DNA of 64,000 nt from Salinarchaeum sp. Harcht-Bsk1 (lineage in GTDB: Archaea > Halobacteriota > Halobacteria > Halobacteriales > Salinarchaeaceae): NCBI RefSeq assembly GCF_000403645.1, contig NC_021313.1, positions 3,119,014 to 3,183,013 of the forward strand. Reading direction: 5' to 3'. Made by a program: the position numbers and the translations under genes. Under the pieces are notes generated by a model. That model saw only the letters and a list, made by a program, of their open reading frames with translations, was not told the origin of the DNA and made no database searches. Position 1 is the stretch's first letter. Each line of letters opens with the position of its first letter. Positions 18,359 through 27,421 of the stretch are shown piece by piece.

Positions 18359-19219
18359 ATGAGCGACACAGTCGGAACCGACGACGAGGTCGAGTCCGTG
18401 AGTGCCGAAACGGCAGACGCTGCCCGCAAACTCGCCGCCGACGCAGAGCGCGTGGTCGTCAAGGCCGGGACGAACACGCTGACCGACGACGAGTCGAACC
18501 TCGACGTCGAGAAGGTGGCCAAACTCGTCGACGACGTCAACGACCTGCTCGAACGCGACAGAGAGGTGCTGCTCGTGTCCTCGGGCGCGGTCGGCGCAGG
18601 CAAGGGCCGCGTCGACTACCCCAACGACACGGTGGAGGAGTCTCAGGCGCTCTCGACGGTCGGCCAGTCACAGTTGATGGCAGAGTACTCCGACAGCTTC
18701 GACCGCTACGACCGGACGGTCGCACAGATTCTCCTCACCGAGAACGACCTCGAGGACACCGAGCGGTTCACGAATTTCACGAACACCGTCGAGACGCTCC
18801 TCGAGTGGGACGTCGTTCCGATCATCAACGAGAACGACGCCGTGGCCACCGAGGAGATCCGGATCGGCGACAACGACATGCTCTCCTCCTCGGTCGCGAT
18901 CGGGGTCGGAGCGGATCTGCTCGTGACGCTGACCGACGTTGGCGGGGTCTACACCGCCAATCCGAAGGAGGACGACGCCGCCGAGCGAATCGAGGTCGTC
19001 GGCAACAACTACGCCGAGGTCCAACAGCTCGTCGACCGGAGTTCCTCGGCGACGTTCGGCGGCATCCAGACGAAAGTCCACGGCGCACGCGAGGTGAGCG
19101 AGCACGAGATCCCTGCGATCATCGCGAAGTCGACGGAGCCCGACGTCCTCGAACAGATCGTGACAGGCAAACCCGTGGGCACCCTGTTCGTTCCCACGAA
19201 CGGTGAGACCGATGAGTGA
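18359..19219 (+). CDS. proB: glutamate 5-kinase
   Basis: 286 residues from the ATG at 18359; an in-frame ATG at 18347 overlapping proC is also possible. The amino-acid-kinase fold shows [37 protein letters not shown] and [13 protein letters not shown]. It phosphorylates glutamate to glutamyl-5-phosphate, the committed and usually proline-inhibited step. The C-terminal PUA domain found in many bacterial enzymes is absent. The 3' end overlaps proA by eight bases if proA starts at 19212. In the cell it probably hands its labile product to ProA. Confidence 0.93.
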
Positions 19220-20702
19220 GCAACTGGAAAAACCGACGGCGGAGAAGGTCGCCGACGCGGAGCGCGCGGCGCTCTCGCTCGCGAAGTGTTCCGATCGGAT
19301 GCGATCGGCAGCCCTCCACGAAATTGCCGACGCCATCGCGGCGAATCACGACGAGATCCTGGCGGCGAACGAGCGCGACGTCGCCGAGGCCGAGGAACTC
19401 CTGGAGGCCGGCGAGTACACGCAGGCGCTGGTCGACCGGCTGAAACTCTCGGAGTCCAAACTTGAGAGCATCGAGGAGATGGTCCGGAGCGTCGCGGGGC
19501 AGGACGACCCCCTCGGCGACACGCAGACCGCGCGAGCGCTCGACGACGGACTTGAGCTCTATCGCGTCTCCGTGCCGATCGGCGTCGTCGGCACCATCTT
19601 CGAGTCCCGACCCGACGCCCTCGTCCAGATCGCCGCGCTCTGCCTTCGCTCCGGGAACGCCGTGATCCTGAAAGGCGGTAGCGAGGCGAGCCATTCGAAT
19701 CGCGTCCTCTACGAACTCATCGAGGACGCGACCGCCGGATTCGCGGTCGACGGCGACGAAGAAACCGGCGACGAGGATGCCGGTGCTCACGCCGCCGAGG
19801 AGGATGCCGGTGATGACGACGCCGCTGACGACGATACCGCTGAAGACGACGCCGGTGATCGCCACGAAGCCGACGACGAACTGCCCGACGGCTGGGCCCA
19901 ACTCATCGAGGCTCGCGCGGACGTGGACACCGTCCTCGAGATGGACGACGCGATCGACCTCGTGATGCCCCGGGGGAGTTCCGAGTTCGTCGAGTACATC
20001 CAGCAGAACACGCACATCCCCGTCCTCGGCCACACCGAGGGCGTCTGTCACGTCTACGTCGACGACGCCGCGGACCTCTCGATGGCGAGCGACATCGCGT
20101 TCGACGCCAAGGTCCAGTATCCGGCGGTCTGCAACGCCGTCGAGACGGTCCTCGTCCACGAGGCGGTCGCCGACGAATTCCTGCCCGAGATCGCGGAGCG
20201 CTACCGGGAGGCTGACGTCGAGATCCGTGGCGACGAGCAGACGCGAGCGATCGTCGACGTGGCTGCTGCGAGCGAGGAAGACTGGGACACCGAGTACGGC
20301 GACCTGATCGTCGCGATCCGGGTCGTCGACTCCATCGACGACGCCGTCGATCACGTTGCGACGTACGGATCGAAGCACACGGATTCGATCGTGACGGAGG
20401 ACACCGGCCACGCGCGCTTCTTCATGCGGAGTCTCGACTCCGCGAGCGTGTTTCACAACGCGTCGACGCGCTTCGCAGACGGGTTCCGGTACGGACTCGG
20501 TGCAGAGGTGGGTATCAGCACCGGGAAGATCCACGCACGGGGCCCAGTCGGTCTCGAGGGGCTGACGACGTACCAGTACTACCTCGAGGGCGACGGGCAA
20601 ATCGTGGGCACATACGCGGGCGCGGACGCGAAACCATTCCGCCACGAGGACTTCGACGGCGAGTGGAGGCCCGGCCAGCTCTCATCAGACAGGTCTGGCT
20701 AA
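19212..20702 (+). CDS. proA: gamma-glutamyl-phosphate reductase with acidic insertion
   Basis: 496 residues from the ATG at 19212; a GTG at 19203 is the alternative. It makes glutamate-5-semialdehyde from glutamyl phosphate using NADPH. Family motifs include [14 protein letters not shown], the catalytic Cys307 in [15 protein letters not shown], and [16 protein letters not shown] near the C-terminus. The enzyme is normally about 420-450 residues. Here a low-complexity stretch of about 45 residues, almost all Asp, Glu, Ala, Gly and Thr (roughly 178-222), interrupts the NADPH domain before [11 protein letters not shown]. Last gene of proCBA, with a strong hairpin right after the stop. Confidence 0.93.
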
Positions 20703-20940: not shown

Positions 20941-22650
20941 ATGGCGGACGACAACTGGTTCGATCGGCGGACGTTCCTCAAGCACGGATCCGTGGCAGGT
21001 GCATCGATCGCGGGAATATCGCTCGCTGGATGTACGAGCGACGGTGACGGTGACGACGACGGGGACGGGGACGGGGGCGACGACAGTGGCACCGATAGCG
21101 GTGGCGGTGACACCGACGGCGACGATACCGACGGCGGTGGAGGTGACGACGTCCCTGAAGGTATCATGCAGGACGACTACTGGCAGGACCTCGAGGAGCC
21201 CTCGAGTCGCGAAGGGTACCTGCAGCGAGCGAATCTCGCGGCCCACCAGGAGGCGCCCTGGATCTTCCTGAACCGACAGTACAGTAACTACGGGAAGGTA
21301 ACGAGCCTCGAGTGGACCGCGCGGAGCGACGAACTGATCTGGGCGTACCCGATGAGCCCGGACGGGAACTCGGTTACGGTCACCCAGGGCCAGATGGACA
21401 CCGGGCTCGACCCGCACGCTCACCGCGAGACGCCGACTGACAACATCGTCACGCAGGCGTACGATCGCCTGCTCATGCGAACGCCCGACGACGAAATCGA
21501 AGGCGCGCTCGCGTCGGACTGGGAGCGCATCGAGGAGGGGCACGTTCGGTTCCAGATTCGCGAGGGCGTCACGTTCCACAACGGCGACGAACTGACGCCG
21601 GACGACGTTGCGTTCAGCATCAACCGGGTCGTCGATCCCGAAGTGAGCCTGGAGAGCCCACAGAACGACCAGCTTGCTGGGGTCACCGGGGCCGAGGTCG
21701 TCGACGGGGAGCGCGCAGTGGACGTCTTCTCCGATGGCATCAACCCCGTGATCTTCTCGCTGTTCGCGTCCTACTGTAACATCGTCCAGCGCGACTGGAT
21801 CGAGTCCAGGGACACCTCCGAGATCAACTCGGACATGAACGGCACGGGAGCGTTCCAGCTTTCGTCCTACGAATCGGGGGAGAGCGTGGTGTACGAAGCC
21901 TTCGACGATCACTGGCGCGGAGCGCCAGAGTTCGACACGCTCGAGTTCAGGGCTGCATCGGAAGACAGCACTCGGGTCAACCAGCTCCTCCAGGGAGAGA
22001 CCGACATTGTCGTCAACGTCCCGCCCCAGGAGGTCTCCCGCGTCCAGGACGAGTCCTCGACGGAGATGGCTCCCGTTCCCAGTACGCGGATCATCTACAA
22101 CGGGATGAAGTACAACGCAGAACCCTTCGACGACCCGCTATTCCGTCGCGCGATGAACTACGCCATCGACCTGGAGTCGATCGTGCAGAACGTGCTCCAG
22201 ACCTTCGCCGACCAGACGGCACAACCGACGCTCGAGGGCTTCGTCGGCTACAACCCGGACCTGGATCCGTACCCGTACGATCCCGAGATGGCCGAGCAAC
22301 TCGTCGAGGCGTCGGGGTACGCCGGTGTGGAACTCGAACTCCACACCCCGGTCGGCCGGTACTTGAAGGACCTCGAAATCGCACAGGCGACCGCGGGCTA
22401 CGTCGACGAACTCAGCAACGTCAGTGCGAGCGTCAACCAGCGCGAGTTCGCTTCGCTCGCGGGTGAACTCACCGACGGCGATCTCTCCACGAGTCCGGAC
22501 TGGTACCTGATCGGGTGGGGGAACGCGGTCTTCGACGCCAGCCAGACGATCATCCCGCTGCTCACCAGTGACGGGGCCCTGACCTCGTGGCAGAACGAGG
22601 ACTTCGACACCCTCGTCGACGAGGCGCAGAGCCTGCCCGGTAGTCAGTAA
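20941..22650 (+). CDS. peptide/solute ABC transporter binding lipoprotein (family 5), apparently circularly permuted
   Basis: 569 residues from the ATG at 20941. A Tat signal (DRRTFLKHG) and lipobox LAGC (Cys31) show export by the twin-arginine pathway and lipid anchoring outside the cell, followed by an Asp/Gly-rich linker to about residue 70. The family's usual C-terminal segment (ANLAAHQEAPWIFLNRQYSN, about 97-116) is found before the usual N-terminal segment (VTVTQGQMDTGLDPH, 145-159; FQIREGVTFHNGDELTPDDV later). The protein ends at DFDTLVDEAQSLPGSQ, where relatives continue with that same missing segment. First gene of the five-gene operon to 27421. Substrate probably peptide-like, not proven. 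Confidence 0.85.
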   Translation: MADDNWFDRRTFLKHGSVAGASIAGISLAGCTSDGDGDDDGDGDGGDDSGTDSGGGDTDGDDTDGGGGDDVPEGIMQDDYWQDLEEPSSREGYLQRANLAAHQEAPWIFLNRQYSNYGKVTSLEWTARSDELIWAYPMSPDGNSVTVTQGQMDTGLDPHAHRETPTDNIVTQAYDRLLMRTPDDEIEGALASDWERIEEGHVRFQIREGVTFHNGDELTPDDVAFSINRVVDPEVSLESPQNDQLAGVTGAEVVDGERAVDVFSDGINPVIFSLFASYCNIVQRDWIESRDTSEINSDMNGTGAFQLSSYESGESVVYEAFDDHWRGAPEFDTLEFRAASEDSTRVNQLLQGETDIVVNVPPQEVSRVQDESSTEMAPVPSTRIIYNGMKYNAEPFDDPLFRRAMNYAIDLESIVQNVLQTFADQTAQPTLEGFVGYNPDLDPYPYDPEMAEQLVEASGYAGVELELHTPVGRYLKDLEIAQATAGYVDELSNVSASVNQREFASLAGELTDGDLSTSPDWYLIGWGNAVFDASQTIIPLLTSDGALTSWQNEDFDTLVDEAQSLPGSQ

Positions 22651-22664
22651 TCGCCCAGCGATCG

Positions 22665-23696
22665 ATGTCGTTGGGACGGTTCCTCGTCAGACGAACGTTG
22701 CAGGGCCTGCTGGTGGTCTGGGGAGTGATTACTGTGGTCTTCCTCCTTCGATTTCTCTCCCCAGGCGACCCAGTGACGTTTATCGCTCCACTGGACGCGA
22801 GTCCCGAACTCAAGGAGCGGATCGCCGCAGATCTCGGGCTCGACCAGCCGATTCACGTCCAGTACGCCGACTACATCGTTGGCGTCCTACAGGCCGATTT
22901 CGGTTACTCGTTCCAGCGAGGCCTCCCTGCGAGCGAGGTGGTCTGGCTCCGGGTACCGGCGACCGTCGAACTGGCAATCGCCGCGAGCGTCGTCGCGTTC
23001 GTGCTCTCGATTCCACTCGGCGTCGTCGCCGCCACTCGACGACACAGCCCGGCCGACTACGGAGCGACGCTGTTCTCGCTTCTCGGAATCTCGACGCCGA
23101 ACTTCTGGCTCGGGATCATGCTCATCCTCGTCCTATCGGTCCAGCTCGACCTGTTTCCGACGAGCCAGCGACCGATCGGCTTCCTCGAGGCCTGGAGTAA
23201 CCTGATCGTGATCCACACCGGCGATCCGTCGGTATCGTTCCCGATGAAGCTCGGTTCGTTCGGCGACGATCTGGGGACGTGGCTCTGGCACATCGCACTT
23301 CCGGCGATCACCCTGGGCACGTACTTCACCGCGCTCATCACGCGATTGACCCGGAGTGGAATGCTCGACGAACTTGGGAAGGAGTACGTGACTGCCTCGC
23401 GAGCGAAGGGGCTCCCGGAGACGCTGGTGCGCTACCGGCACGCCCTCAGGAACACCCTCATTCCGATCATCACGGTTCTCGGGCTGCAGCTCGGGACGCT
23501 CATCGGCGGCGCGGTCATCACCGAACAGGTCTTCGCCTGGCCCGGGCTGGGATCGCTCCTGATCGACGCGATCAACGATCGTGACTGGCCGGTGATCCAG
23601 GCGTCGCTGATCGTCATCGGCGTGAGCTTCGTCATCATCAACATCGTCGTCGATGCGCTGTACGGCTACCTGAACCCGAAGGTGGGATTCGAATAA
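22665..23696 (+). CDS. dppB: ABC transporter permease, DppB-type
   Basis: 343 residues with the six-helix pattern of the DppB/OppB family, including the N-terminal RFLVRRTLQGLLVVWGVITV and the cytoplasmic coupling motif EYVTASRAKGLPETLVRYRH. It forms one half of the membrane channel for peptide uptake. It starts 14 bases after the binding protein and its stop overlaps the next start by one base. Substrate assignment (peptides, or possibly nickel or sugars) rests on family only. Confidence 0.9.
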   Translation: MSLGRFLVRRTLQGLLVVWGVITVVFLLRFLSPGDPVTFIAPLDASPELKERIAADLGLDQPIHVQYADYIVGVLQADFGYSFQRGLPASEVVWLRVPATVELAIAASVVAFVLSIPLGVVAATRRHSPADYGATLFSLLGISTPNFWLGIMLILVLSVQLDLFPTSQRPIGFLEAWSNLIVIHTGDPSVSFPMKLGSFGDDLGTWLWHIALPAITLGTYFTALITRLTRSGMLDELGKEYVTASRAKGLPETLVRYRHALRNTLIPIITVLGLQLGTLIGGAVITEQVFAWPGLGSLLIDAINDRDWPVIQASLIVIGVSFVIINIVVDALYGYLNPKVGFE

Positions 23697-24760
23697 TGGT
23701 CTCAGATCGAACCTGGCGAAACCTGCGAGCGGAGTTGCGTCGGAGTCACCTCGCGAAGCTCGGCGTCCTGCTGGTCCTCTTCATCGTCACGGCGGCGATC
23801 CTCGCGCCCGTCCTCGCGCCGCACGACCCGACCAAAACGAATCCAGAGGACAGCAATCTCCCGCCACTCGGCTTCAGTGAGACGAAGAACCAGTCGACGT
23901 CGCAGATGGTCGACGGAGAGATTCAGATCGTCGAGGAGAAGGTCGAGGTCAACGCGAAGAGCGAGCATCCACTCGGGACCGACCACGTCGGCCGGGACGT
24001 GCTCTCTCGAGTCCTCTTCGGCGCGCGGACGTCCCTCGTCGTCGGCATCATCGGCACAGCGCTCGCCGCACTGTTCGGCGTGAGCGTCGGCCTCGTGTCC
24101 GGCTACTACGGCGGACGGGTCGACGACGGCTTCATGCGGGCGGCCGACATCATGCTGGCGTTCCCATCGCTCGTGCTCGCGATCGCGCTCGTCGGCATCT
24201 GGGGACAGCAGTCCTACGAGATACCCGACCCGTTCCACGCGCTCGGAATCACTCCGGACATGCCGGAAGCGACCGTGGTACCGGGCACTGTCATCATCGT
24301 GGTCGCCCTCGTCAACTGGGTGTGGTTCGCGCGCGTCGCGCGCGGTGAGGCACTGCGGGTTCGCAACGAGGAGTACATCAAGGCGGCGCGAGCCAGCGGA
24401 ATGCGGGACGTCGAGATCGGCTCCGTCTACGTCTTCGGTCGACGACTCCCGTTCCCGAGAGGAATCGTCATCCAGCACGTCCTCCCCAACAGCGTCACGC
24501 CGATCATCGTTCTCGCGACGATCCAGGTCGCCGCGATCATCCTCCTCGAGAGCGCGCTGTCGTTCCTCGGGTTCTCCGGGGCCAACCTCTCGTGGGGGAT
24601 CGACATATCGCAGGGGCGGAACTACCTCTCGTCCTCGTGGTGGATCGCGACCGTGCCGGGCGTCGCCATCGTGATCGCCGTCGTGGGGATCAACTTGCTC
24701 GGCGATTGGCTCCGCGACGCACTCGACCCTGGCATCGACCAGGGGGAGGGCGGTGTCTGA
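23696..24760 (+). CDS. dppC: ABC transporter permease, DppC-type
   Basis: 354 residues. An N-terminal helix (about 18-40) is followed by an outside loop that is longer than usual (about 45-95, KTNPEDSNLPPLGFSETKNQ...). The five-helix channel domain follows, with the coupling motif EEYIKAARASGMRDVEI. It pairs with the upstream DppB-like permease. The start codon overlaps the stop of the previous gene, and its stop overlaps the next start (TGATG), showing tight translational coupling through the operon. Confidence 0.9.
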   Translation: MVSDRTWRNLRAELRRSHLAKLGVLLVLFIVTAAILAPVLAPHDPTKTNPEDSNLPPLGFSETKNQSTSQMVDGEIQIVEEKVEVNAKSEHPLGTDHVGRDVLSRVLFGARTSLVVGIIGTALAALFGVSVGLVSGYYGGRVDDGFMRAADIMLAFPSLVLAIALVGIWGQQSYEIPDPFHALGITPDMPEATVVPGTVIIVVALVNWVWFARVARGEALRVRNEEYIKAARASGMRDVEIGSVYVFGRRLPFPRGIVIQHVLPNSVTPIIVLATIQVAAIILLESALSFLGFSGANLSWGIDISQGRNYLSSSWWIATVPGVAIVIAVVGINLLGDWLRDALDPGIDQGEGGV

Positions 24761-26016
24761 TGCCCGAGGACCTCCTCCGCGTCCGCGGACTGACGACCCG
24801 CTTCTTCACGCAAGAGGGGCAGGTCAACGCCGTCGAGGACGTCTCCTTCGACGTCCGCGAAGGCGAGGTGCTGGGCATCGTCGGTGAATCGGGCTCTGGC
24901 AAGAGCGTCACGGCACTCTCTCTGGTCGACCTGATCGACGACCCGGGTCGCGTCACCGACGGTGAGATCTGGTATCGCAACGAGGCGCTCGCGGACGCCG
25001 CTCGCGACCGCGGTGACGCGGCCGTCGACGGCGACTTCGTCGACGTGCGTCAGTTGGCGCTCCGACACCGCCGTGCGCTTCGAGGGCCCGACTTCGCGTC
25101 GATCTTCCAGGATCCAGCGAGCAGCCTCAACCCGTCACTGCCGGTCGGCGAGCAGATCGCGGAGGCCGTCGAGGTGCAGCGCCGCGCGAGCGCGAACCCC
25201 CGATCGACCCGCTCCCGGACCCAGTCCTACGGACTCGGCAAGTTCCTCGTCGGCGCGGCTGTCCCCGGCCGCGGGTATCTCAGCGAGGAGAGCAAGGCCC
25301 GGGCGATCGAACTCCTCGAGATGGTCGGGATTCCCGATCCGGCGGAGCGCGCCGAGGCGCTTCCCCACGAGTACTCCGGCGGGATGCTCCAGCGGGCGAT
25401 GATCGCGCAGGCCCTGGCTGGCGAACCGAACGTGTTGATCGCCGACGAACCGACGACCGCGCTCGACGTCACGATCCAGGCACAGATCCTCGACCTCCTC
25501 CGGGACCTGCAGGAGGAAACCGGGATGACCATCCTGCTCATCACGCACAACCTCGGCGTCATCGCGCGGATGTGCGATCGCGTCGGCGTGATGTACGCCG
25601 GCGAAATCGTCGAACGGGGCACCCTCGAGGACGTGTTCGACGATCCCATCCATCCCTACACGCGGGGCTTGCTGGGATCGATCCCCGACCTCGAATCCGC
25701 CGGCGGACGGCTCCAGCCCATCGAGGGCAACGTCCCGAGTCTCCTCGACCACGAGATGGAGGACCGCTGTTACTTCGCGGACCGGTGTCCGAAAGCGATG
25801 GAGGAATGTCTGGAGAAACCCCCCGAATTCGACGGGCCCGGCACCGCGAATCACCGCGCGAAGTGCTACCTCGCGGACCATCCCTACGAACCGGAGCAGG
25901 CGTTGCCGGAAGGGTACTTCGAGGACGGAGATGGAGCGACGGGCAGTGATGGCGACGGCGGAGACGGAACGCGCGCCTCCGAAGTTCGCGCAGACGAGGT
26001 GGGAGCCGATGACTGA
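24760..26016 (+). CDS. dppD: ABC transporter ATPase, DppD-type
   Basis: 418 residues from the ATG at 24760. Walker A is GESGSGKSV, the signature motif is [15 protein letters not shown] and Walker B is [12 protein letters not shown]. The C-terminal oligopeptide-ABC domain includes the cysteine cluster [16 protein letters not shown] ... KCYL that in relatives can hold an iron-sulfur cluster. It powers the uptake system on the cytoplasmic side together with DppF. An insertion of about 40 residues after [16 protein letters not shown] lies between Walker A and the signature. The 3' end overlaps the next gene by eight bases. Confidence 0.9.
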
Positions 26017-27421
26017 ACCACTGCTCGAAGTTCGCGACCTCGAGAAGTACTTCTTCGAGCGCGACACCTACGTCGACCGTATCATGGGGTCGGATCCGGT
26101 GTCGATCAAAGCAGTCGACGGGATCAGCTTCGACGTCCACGAGGGCGAAACGCTCGGTCTCGTCGGCGAATCGGGCTGTGGCAAGTCCACGACCGGCGAG
26201 ACGCTGCTCGGGCTTCAGGAGCCCACCGGCGGCACCGTGCGATTCGACGGGGACGACGTGTTCTCGCTCTCTCGGAGCGGGATGCGGACGTTCCGCCGAA
26301 ACGCGCAGGTGGTGTTCCAGGATCCGTTCTCGAGTCTGGATCCACGGATGACCGTCGGTGCGATCGTCCGGCAACCGCTGGAGGTCCACGGCGTTGGAAC
26401 GCTGGCCGAGCAACGTGAGCGAGTCCACGACCTGCTCGAGCGCGTCGGCCTGAGCGCCGACCAGTACGACCGCTACCCCCACGAGTTCTCCGGTGGCCAG
26501 CGCCAGCGGATCGGAATCGCGCGAGCACTCGCGCTCGAACCGGAGTTCCTCGTGCTCGACGAGCCGACGAGTGCGCTGGACGTCTCGGTACAGGCCCAGA
26601 TCCTCAACTTGCTCTCGGACCTGCAGGACGAGTTCGACCTCACCTATCTGCTGATCTCCCACGACCTCTCCGTTATTCGCCACATCTGCGATCGCGTCGC
26701 GGTGATGTATCTCGGCGAACTTGTGGAGGTCGGTCCGGTCGGTGAGATCTTCGAGTCGCCACGACACCCCTACACGCAGGCGCTGCTGGAGAGCGTGCCG
26801 CGGGCCTCGACGGACGAGCGAGATCGCGACGTCGAAACGCTATCCGGCGACGTCCCGTCACCGCGCAATCCGCCCAGCGGCTGCCGGTTCAGGACGCGGT
26901 GTCCCGACGTCATCCCACCCGACGCGCTCGACGTCGAACAGGCGGAGTACCGACAGATCATGGACGTCCGGGAGCGCATCGAATCCGAGGACGTCGACCT
27001 GGATTCGGTCTGGGACTACGTCGCGGATGGGCCCCCGTCGTCGTTCGGATCGATCAGGTCGTACCTCGACAGGTCCGGCGACGGGACGGACGACTATCGC
27101 GACCAGCACGTGGACGCGTTCGTCGACCGCCTGGAAACGCGACTCGTGGACGTCGATCTGTCCGCACCGCACGACCGTACGGTGCGTGAGGCGTTCCGCG
27201 AACTCTGCTACGGCGACTGGGACGAGGCTGCGGCGGTGCTCGCTGACGACTACGAGAGCATCTGTGAGACCGTCACGCCGGTGTTGCAGGACGGCGCCGA
27301 TCACCCCGTCGCGTGTCACCTCTACGACCAGCCACCGGTCGAGGACGGCCGATCGACGGGCGCGAGACCCGATGTCGGATCTGCCGATTCGGTTGACGCG
27401 GAGAACGCCAGTTCGGATTGA
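26009..27421 (+). CDS. dppF: ABC transporter ATPase, DppF-type, with long C-terminal extension
   Basis: 470 residues from the ATG at 26009; longer upstream starts lie inside dppD. Walker A is GESGCGKST, the signature is [15 protein letters not shown] and Walker B is [11 protein letters not shown]. The oligopeptide C-terminal domain ([13 protein letters not shown]) ends near residue 310. About 150 extra residues follow (from about 320), acidic and partly helical, with a repeat-like use of Arg/Glu. Their role is unknown. DppF forms a heterodimer with DppD to drive peptide import. Last gene of the operon. Confidence 0.9.

Follow-up and report, generated by a model that had tools for sequence, protein, structure and literature searches.

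Circular permutation is in itself a known phenomenon. The locus analyzed here raises the question of whether the binding protein (SBP) of an archaeal importer has been circularly permuted in nature, and whether this has happened more than once. The window (the whole stretch of 64,000 nucleotides of Salinarchaeum sp. Harcht-Bsk1 that was analyzed) contains a lipoprotein gene for which a first-pass annotation had proposed such a rearrangement: a segment that family-5 proteins normally carry near the C-terminus appeared to lie at the N-terminus. We consider it very probable that the product is a naturally circularly permuted, lipid-anchored SBP of a DppABCDF-type importer. Its ligands are most likely peptides, as assumed from the family.

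The gene and its product

The SBP gene is a single open frame on the forward strand (20941-22650) encoding 569 aa. Pfam SBP_bac_5 (PF00496) matches residues 185-545 with 224 bits (E 3.8e-66), so the protein passes the gathering score of this cluster C profile (32.4). Inspection of the translation revealed the two features of a haloarchaeal Tat lipoprotein, namely the twin-arginine motif DRRTFLK and the lipobox LAGC with Cys31; the PF10518 TAT_signal profile gave a sub-threshold match (E 0.04). The linker that follows is acidic and rich in Gly, Ser and Asp, and the junction at its end reads EEPS, versus PEPETR in most homologues of the main permuted group described below.

The translation bore out the proposed layout (Table 1). 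The APWIFL segment, placed by the first-pass annotation at about residues 90-140 and delimited here, with essentially the same limits, as 89-140, follows the lipoprotein linker and directly precedes the normal N-terminal strand VTVTQGQMDTGLDPH. It comprises a helix (REGYLQRAN..) and a strand (APWIFLNRQYSNYG..DELIWAYPM), contains APWIFLNRQY and also includes SREGYLQRANLAAHQEAPWIFLNRQYSNYGKVTSLEWTARSDELIWAYPM. Canonical proteins terminate within a few residues of the point equivalent to the short fusion at 141-143. The Harcht-Bsk1 protein itself terminates in DEAQSLPGSQ, at the helix that normally precedes the transposed segment. It thus departs from the usual SBP_bac_5 element order, which is typical but not strictly defining, in that the tail precedes the core. 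The next best SBP relatives within the same genome are only 24-28% identical.

Table 1. Features of the Harcht-Bsk1 window and, in the last four rows, permuted SBP genes at loci of a second archaeal class
Feature	Position	Strand	Basis or remark
Tat-type signal and lipobox of a lipid-anchored exported protein	20941..21033	+	translation; PF10518 sub-threshold
Acidic, Gly/Ser-rich tether linker with the EEPS junction at its end (residues 32-88)	21034..21204	+	
Moved family-5 C-terminal segment (residues 89-140)	21205..21360	+	profile match; predicted helix/strand
Short fusion of old C-terminus to old N-terminal strand, residues 141-143	21361..21369	+	canonical ends
Family-5 core, from VTVTQGQMDTGLDPH to helix DFDTLVDEAQS, residues 144-564	21370..22632	+	Pfam
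New C-terminus LPGSQ and stop, where canonical proteins have a helix-helix turn	22633..22650	+	
DppB-type permease gene	22665..23696	+	15 bp downstream of SBP; operon order common to both forms
DppC-type permease gene	23696..24760	+	operon order
DppD-type ATPase gene, start inferred	24760..26016	+	operon order
DppF-type ATPase gene, start inferred	26009..27421	+	operon order
Permuted SBP L175	5730-7472	-	
Permuted SBP L183	5583-7211	+	
Permuted SBP L184	7324-8943	-	
Permuted SBP L185	7535-9157	+	

Segment order in orthologues

Searches of 98 related genomes and 394 genomes of the order returned two classes of match: nearly the whole query (1-569) in some genomes, and about residue 140 to 565 in many. 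The latter are canonical orthologues, in which the core is followed by, for example, ...REQLLREANQLAHDEAPWIFLNRQYSVYGASSRIDWQARRDESIKAYEI and a stop; their cores are up to 66% identical to that of the window protein (64-66% in the best ones). We built separate profiles of the core and of the moved segment, both from permuted proteins, and scanned every neighbourhood protein with them. The N-terminal-segment profile matched the N-termini of all 38 permuted orthologues, which are tail-first, and the C-termini of all 57 canonical ones (E 1e-17 to 1e-32), which are core-first. Each of these 95 classified proteins carries one copy of the tail.

The circular permutation of this SBP is thereby confirmed as real and widespread in haloarchaea, and chance does not explain the order swap. 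The same permuted order occurs in the sister species Salinarchaeum laminariae R26 (L008). Altogether 47 permuted haloarchaeal genomes were found (the 38 classified by profile, one with the frameshifted gene L155, and eight from a class-level search only), spread over families coded f1, f4, f5, f6, f8 and f15. Thirteen tail positions are conserved at >90% and 50 core positions at >95% in both forms.

The first-pass annotation had also pointed to a duplication intermediate as something to look for. None emerged: none of the orthologues scanned by profile has a tail at each end, and when all loci were scanned with the profile in six frames, the permuted genes showed no additional tail, the extra tail-profile matches in that scan being other SBP genes. 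The same scan detected no residual tail downstream of permuted genes in any frame, which disposes of the suggestion that a missing C-terminal piece might lie out of frame beyond position 22650.

Some individual loci deserve mention. The second-group SBP L155 (G311) is tail-first with a frameshift within the core, reflecting a sequencing error or a pseudogene. In four permuted proteins of family f4 (L070, L071, L076 and L080), the new C-terminus is extended by a long stretch rich in Gly, Ser, Asn and Thr, like a second flexible tail. L165 (G093) has two canonical SBP genes of this family, some 6 kb apart and in the same orientation, which may have arisen by tandem duplication. Apparent matches from residue 95 on bacterial plasmids (Ruegeria, Pseudochrobactrum) were considered as permuted candidates and rejected: the alignments start upstream of the annotated start and both genes continue for some 65 codons beyond the end of the match, which makes them canonical genes with over-extended alignments.

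Breakpoint and predicted structure

The loop that was cut reads, for example, ...SLVEQAQS-ESDPAQR-KQYLEDAN... in the canonical protein L108. In the permuted protein L066, the core ends in ...EEAQSLPGSQ and the N-terminal segment starts with ...LPEPETREEYLQRAN..., while the old C-terminus (..IDAYAISP) meets the old N-terminal strand via a few residues. The main permuted group has the junction residues PEPETR, YLQRAN and AQSLPG in common; a second permuted group (L098-L101) has the junction ELPEDPTRExLxHAN and the end QANNIPSG.

Structure prediction agreed with the permutation reading. AlphaFold models, made from alignments of 38 (permuted) and 42 (canonical) sequences, predict that the two proteins have the same fold, with one helix and one strand at opposite ends. 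The canonical model (pLDDT 93.8, pTM 0.89) ends with H416-426, a four-residue turn, H431-448 and E451-464; the permuted model (pLDDT 86.0, pTM 0.73) starts with H8-22 and E28-38 and ends with H471-482. The cut site corresponds to the four-residue turn that joins H416-426 to H431-448 in the canonical model. In the permuted model, the moved helix and strand have a pLDDT of about 78-89, and the tail is predicted to pack in its native place; block pLDDT drops to 63-77 over parts of the final 50 residues.

Foldseek placed the permuted model closest to 5u4o, 1uqw and 1dpp/1dpe (TM 0.64-0.80 over ordered alignments), and the predicted model accordingly has a two-lobed DppA/OppA-like fold. For the two best PDB templates common to both models, the ordered alignments comprised 448 and 436 columns with the permuted model versus 492 and 495 with the canonical one. 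Shortfalls of 44 and 59 columns are what one would expect of a tail that sequence-ordered alignment has to leave unmatched.

Operon context

The window SBP gene is followed by two permease genes and two ATPase genes, the arrangement of a DppABCDF-type operon. This order (SBP, permease, permease, ATPase, ATPase) is common to permuted and canonical loci, and in both the first permease mostly starts 1-110 bp past the SBP stop; the gap is longer at a few loci, and the operon is missing from a few canonical ones (e.g., L102, L164 and L167-L169). The unpermuted orthologues that the first-pass annotation had suggested looking for in related genomes were found in the same operon. At the strong-match level, genomes have one form or the other; among the matches listed only G389 has both, and its canonical copy lies outside any such operon. 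With one form per genome at the same operon position, the permuted gene thus takes the place of the canonical one.

Upstream of the SBP gene, proA (proline synthesis) is kept only in the sister species. The window ProA (gamma-glutamyl phosphate reductase; 19203-20702, +) has an apparent internal Asp/Glu-rich low-complexity insertion, and the DppF-type ATPase has an apparent long extra stretch in its C-terminal Cys-containing region, before HPVACHLY.

Alternative explanations of the single protein

An N-terminal segment that is an unrelated insertion, together with a truncated C-terminus, would make this a degenerating gene, and the usual C-terminal helix and strand are indeed absent from the protein end. 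However, the N-terminal segment matches canonical C-termini with the E values given above, shares its conserved positions with canonical proteins and is kept in 47 genomes, with operons intact where examined. Degeneration is therefore extremely improbable, and the idea of residues 90-140 as an unrelated insertion, which the first-pass annotation had set against its own proposal, failed. That the order is an artefact of assembling or annotating this genome is less probable still, since the same order is found in S. laminariae and in more than 40 other species of several families. The protein might also have been exapted from transport, for example as a sensor or an adhesin, with the new terminus serving another interaction; the Gly/Ser/Asn-rich C-terminal extensions of L070, L071, L076 and L080 would suit such a role. 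We regard this as very unlikely, because the gene lies upstream of both permeases and the ATPases, like the canonical genes, and the conserved core positions are common to both forms. A permuted SBP that still serves its importer is the reading that we retain.

Origins of the permutation in haloarchaea

A maximum-likelihood SBP tree was built from 95 proteins, all put in canonical order. At least three order changes are needed on its well-supported branches, and a single clade of all permuted SBPs was rejected by the AU test (p 6.1e-48). A quick, independent tree of two permeases and one ATPase also rejected a single permuted clade (p 8.5e-73); the topology tests hold under the models used. 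The second permuted group joins the canonical proteins L156-L158 in the SBP tree (support 100/99) and stands beside the same canonical operons in the permease/ATPase tree, and its four members held as one clade were not rejected (p 0.33). A chimeric origin of this group was considered but not supported, since for most of its tails and cores the closest canonical relatives coincide. This group has junctions of its own and is nested with canonical members in both trees, and thus the same loop has probably been cut at least twice in haloarchaea, where permutation apparently recurred.

For the main permuted group, the shared PEPETR, YLQRAN and AQSLPG residues favour one origin, which the SBP tree did not reject (p 0.45) but the permease/ATPase tree did (p 3.6e-4). 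This disagreement suggests SBP gene exchange or further permutation. In our reading, permutation occurred at least twice, and in addition either SBP genes were exchanged between operons or there was a further origin.

Recurrence would be unnecessary if there had been one ancient permutation and the canonical proteins nested among permuted ones in the tree had arisen by reversion or gene conversion. The common cut site of the two groups, the residues common to the main group and the single main-group origin kept by the SBP tree are all in line with this. Yet a single gain followed only by reversals requires ten reversals on the SBP tree and nine on the operon tree, versus five gains on each. 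Monophyly of all permuted forms conflicts with both the SBP and the permease/ATPase data, junction residues differ between the two groups, and the nearest relatives of the second-group cores throughout, and of most second-group tails, are canonical. We thus consider one ancient permutation unlikely and prefer recurrence.

Mechanism and comparison with known systems

The permuted protein would retain the two-lobed structure of its relatives, close on its ligand as they do and hand it over to the permeases. We infer that the permutation affects anchoring: the lipid tether would enter at the last helix, not the first strand, with the free C-terminus alongside. The former termini lie next to each other, so that a few residues suffice to join them. 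The rearrangement probably arose within the gene, either through duplication and deletion or through transposition of the end segment. The apparent recurrence at one turn suggests that tethering there is tolerated or useful, and we hypothesize that tether position has been under selection.

The canonical haloarchaeal DppA-type SBPs (e.g., L107, L111 and L113) share family, operon and conserved core positions with the window protein and differ in that the equivalent of its residues 89-140 is C-terminal; a similar lipoprotein architecture was seen by eye in some. A more distant, annotated canonical DppA-type SBP is WP_276255968.1 of Halomontanus rarus.

The open literature searched, which left most subscription journals outside its scope, yielded no description of permuted family-5 SBPs, and TpMglB-2 was the only natural permuted SBP noticed there; the other results concerned engineered sensors or were unrelated. 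TpMglB-2 (Tp0684) of Treponema pallidum, for which a "Type Ic / Cluster Bc" of ligand-binding proteins was proposed, is the anchored glucose-binding lipoprotein of an ABC importer, is naturally permuted and still binds its sugar (PMC4990184). Its authors proposed that tethering may have driven the permutation (PMC4990184). The window protein resembles it as a natural circular permutation of an anchored ABC-importer SBP, but it falls outside Type Ic / Cluster Bc, a class I fold with a permuted N lobe, and the two are alike only in being permuted. TpMglB-2 has the bacterial class I/cluster B sugar-binding fold with N-lobe strands moved towards the C-terminus, whereas the window protein belongs, by sequence and predicted fold, to family 5/cluster C and has its last helix and strand moved to the N-terminus.

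The coexistence of both orders in close orthologues at the same operon position is unusual for natural circular permutations and provides a natural experiment on where a binding protein can be tethered. The apparent recurrence at the same loop makes it testable whether neutral drift through tolerated loops or selection, for example on tether position, is responsible. Permuted SBPs also offer ready scaffolds for peptide biosensors. Family-5 annotation hides such topology changes, as Pfam covers only the middle part of the protein.

Permuted binding proteins in a second archaeal class

Searching the phylum with a profile revealed L175, a family-5 SBP from another archaeal class. About 160 residues after its signal peptide match the C-terminal part of the canonical relative L176, and the N-terminal part of L176 comes next; the swapped BLAST pieces have E values of 3e-14 and 2e-53. 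L183-L185, of the same family as L175, gave swapped pieces with E values of 4e-11 to 5e-13 and 4e-28 to 3e-32. All four genes adjoin DppBCDF-like genes (two permeases and two ATPases). Like the haloarchaeal form, these are permuted family-5 proteins, but about 140-160 C-terminal residues are moved to the N-terminus. Since the breakpoint differs, their permutation is most likely an event independent of the haloarchaeal one.

Taken further, these data could reflect at least three independent permutations of archaeal family-5 SBPs (at least two at one haloarchaeal turn and one in the second class), selected for permease docking through a shift of the tether. We put this forward tentatively, as possible but somewhat less than probable. 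If true, selection would have exploited circular permutation repeatedly within a single protein family. The L175 SBP has, in addition, a C-terminal PGF-CTERM-like anchor.
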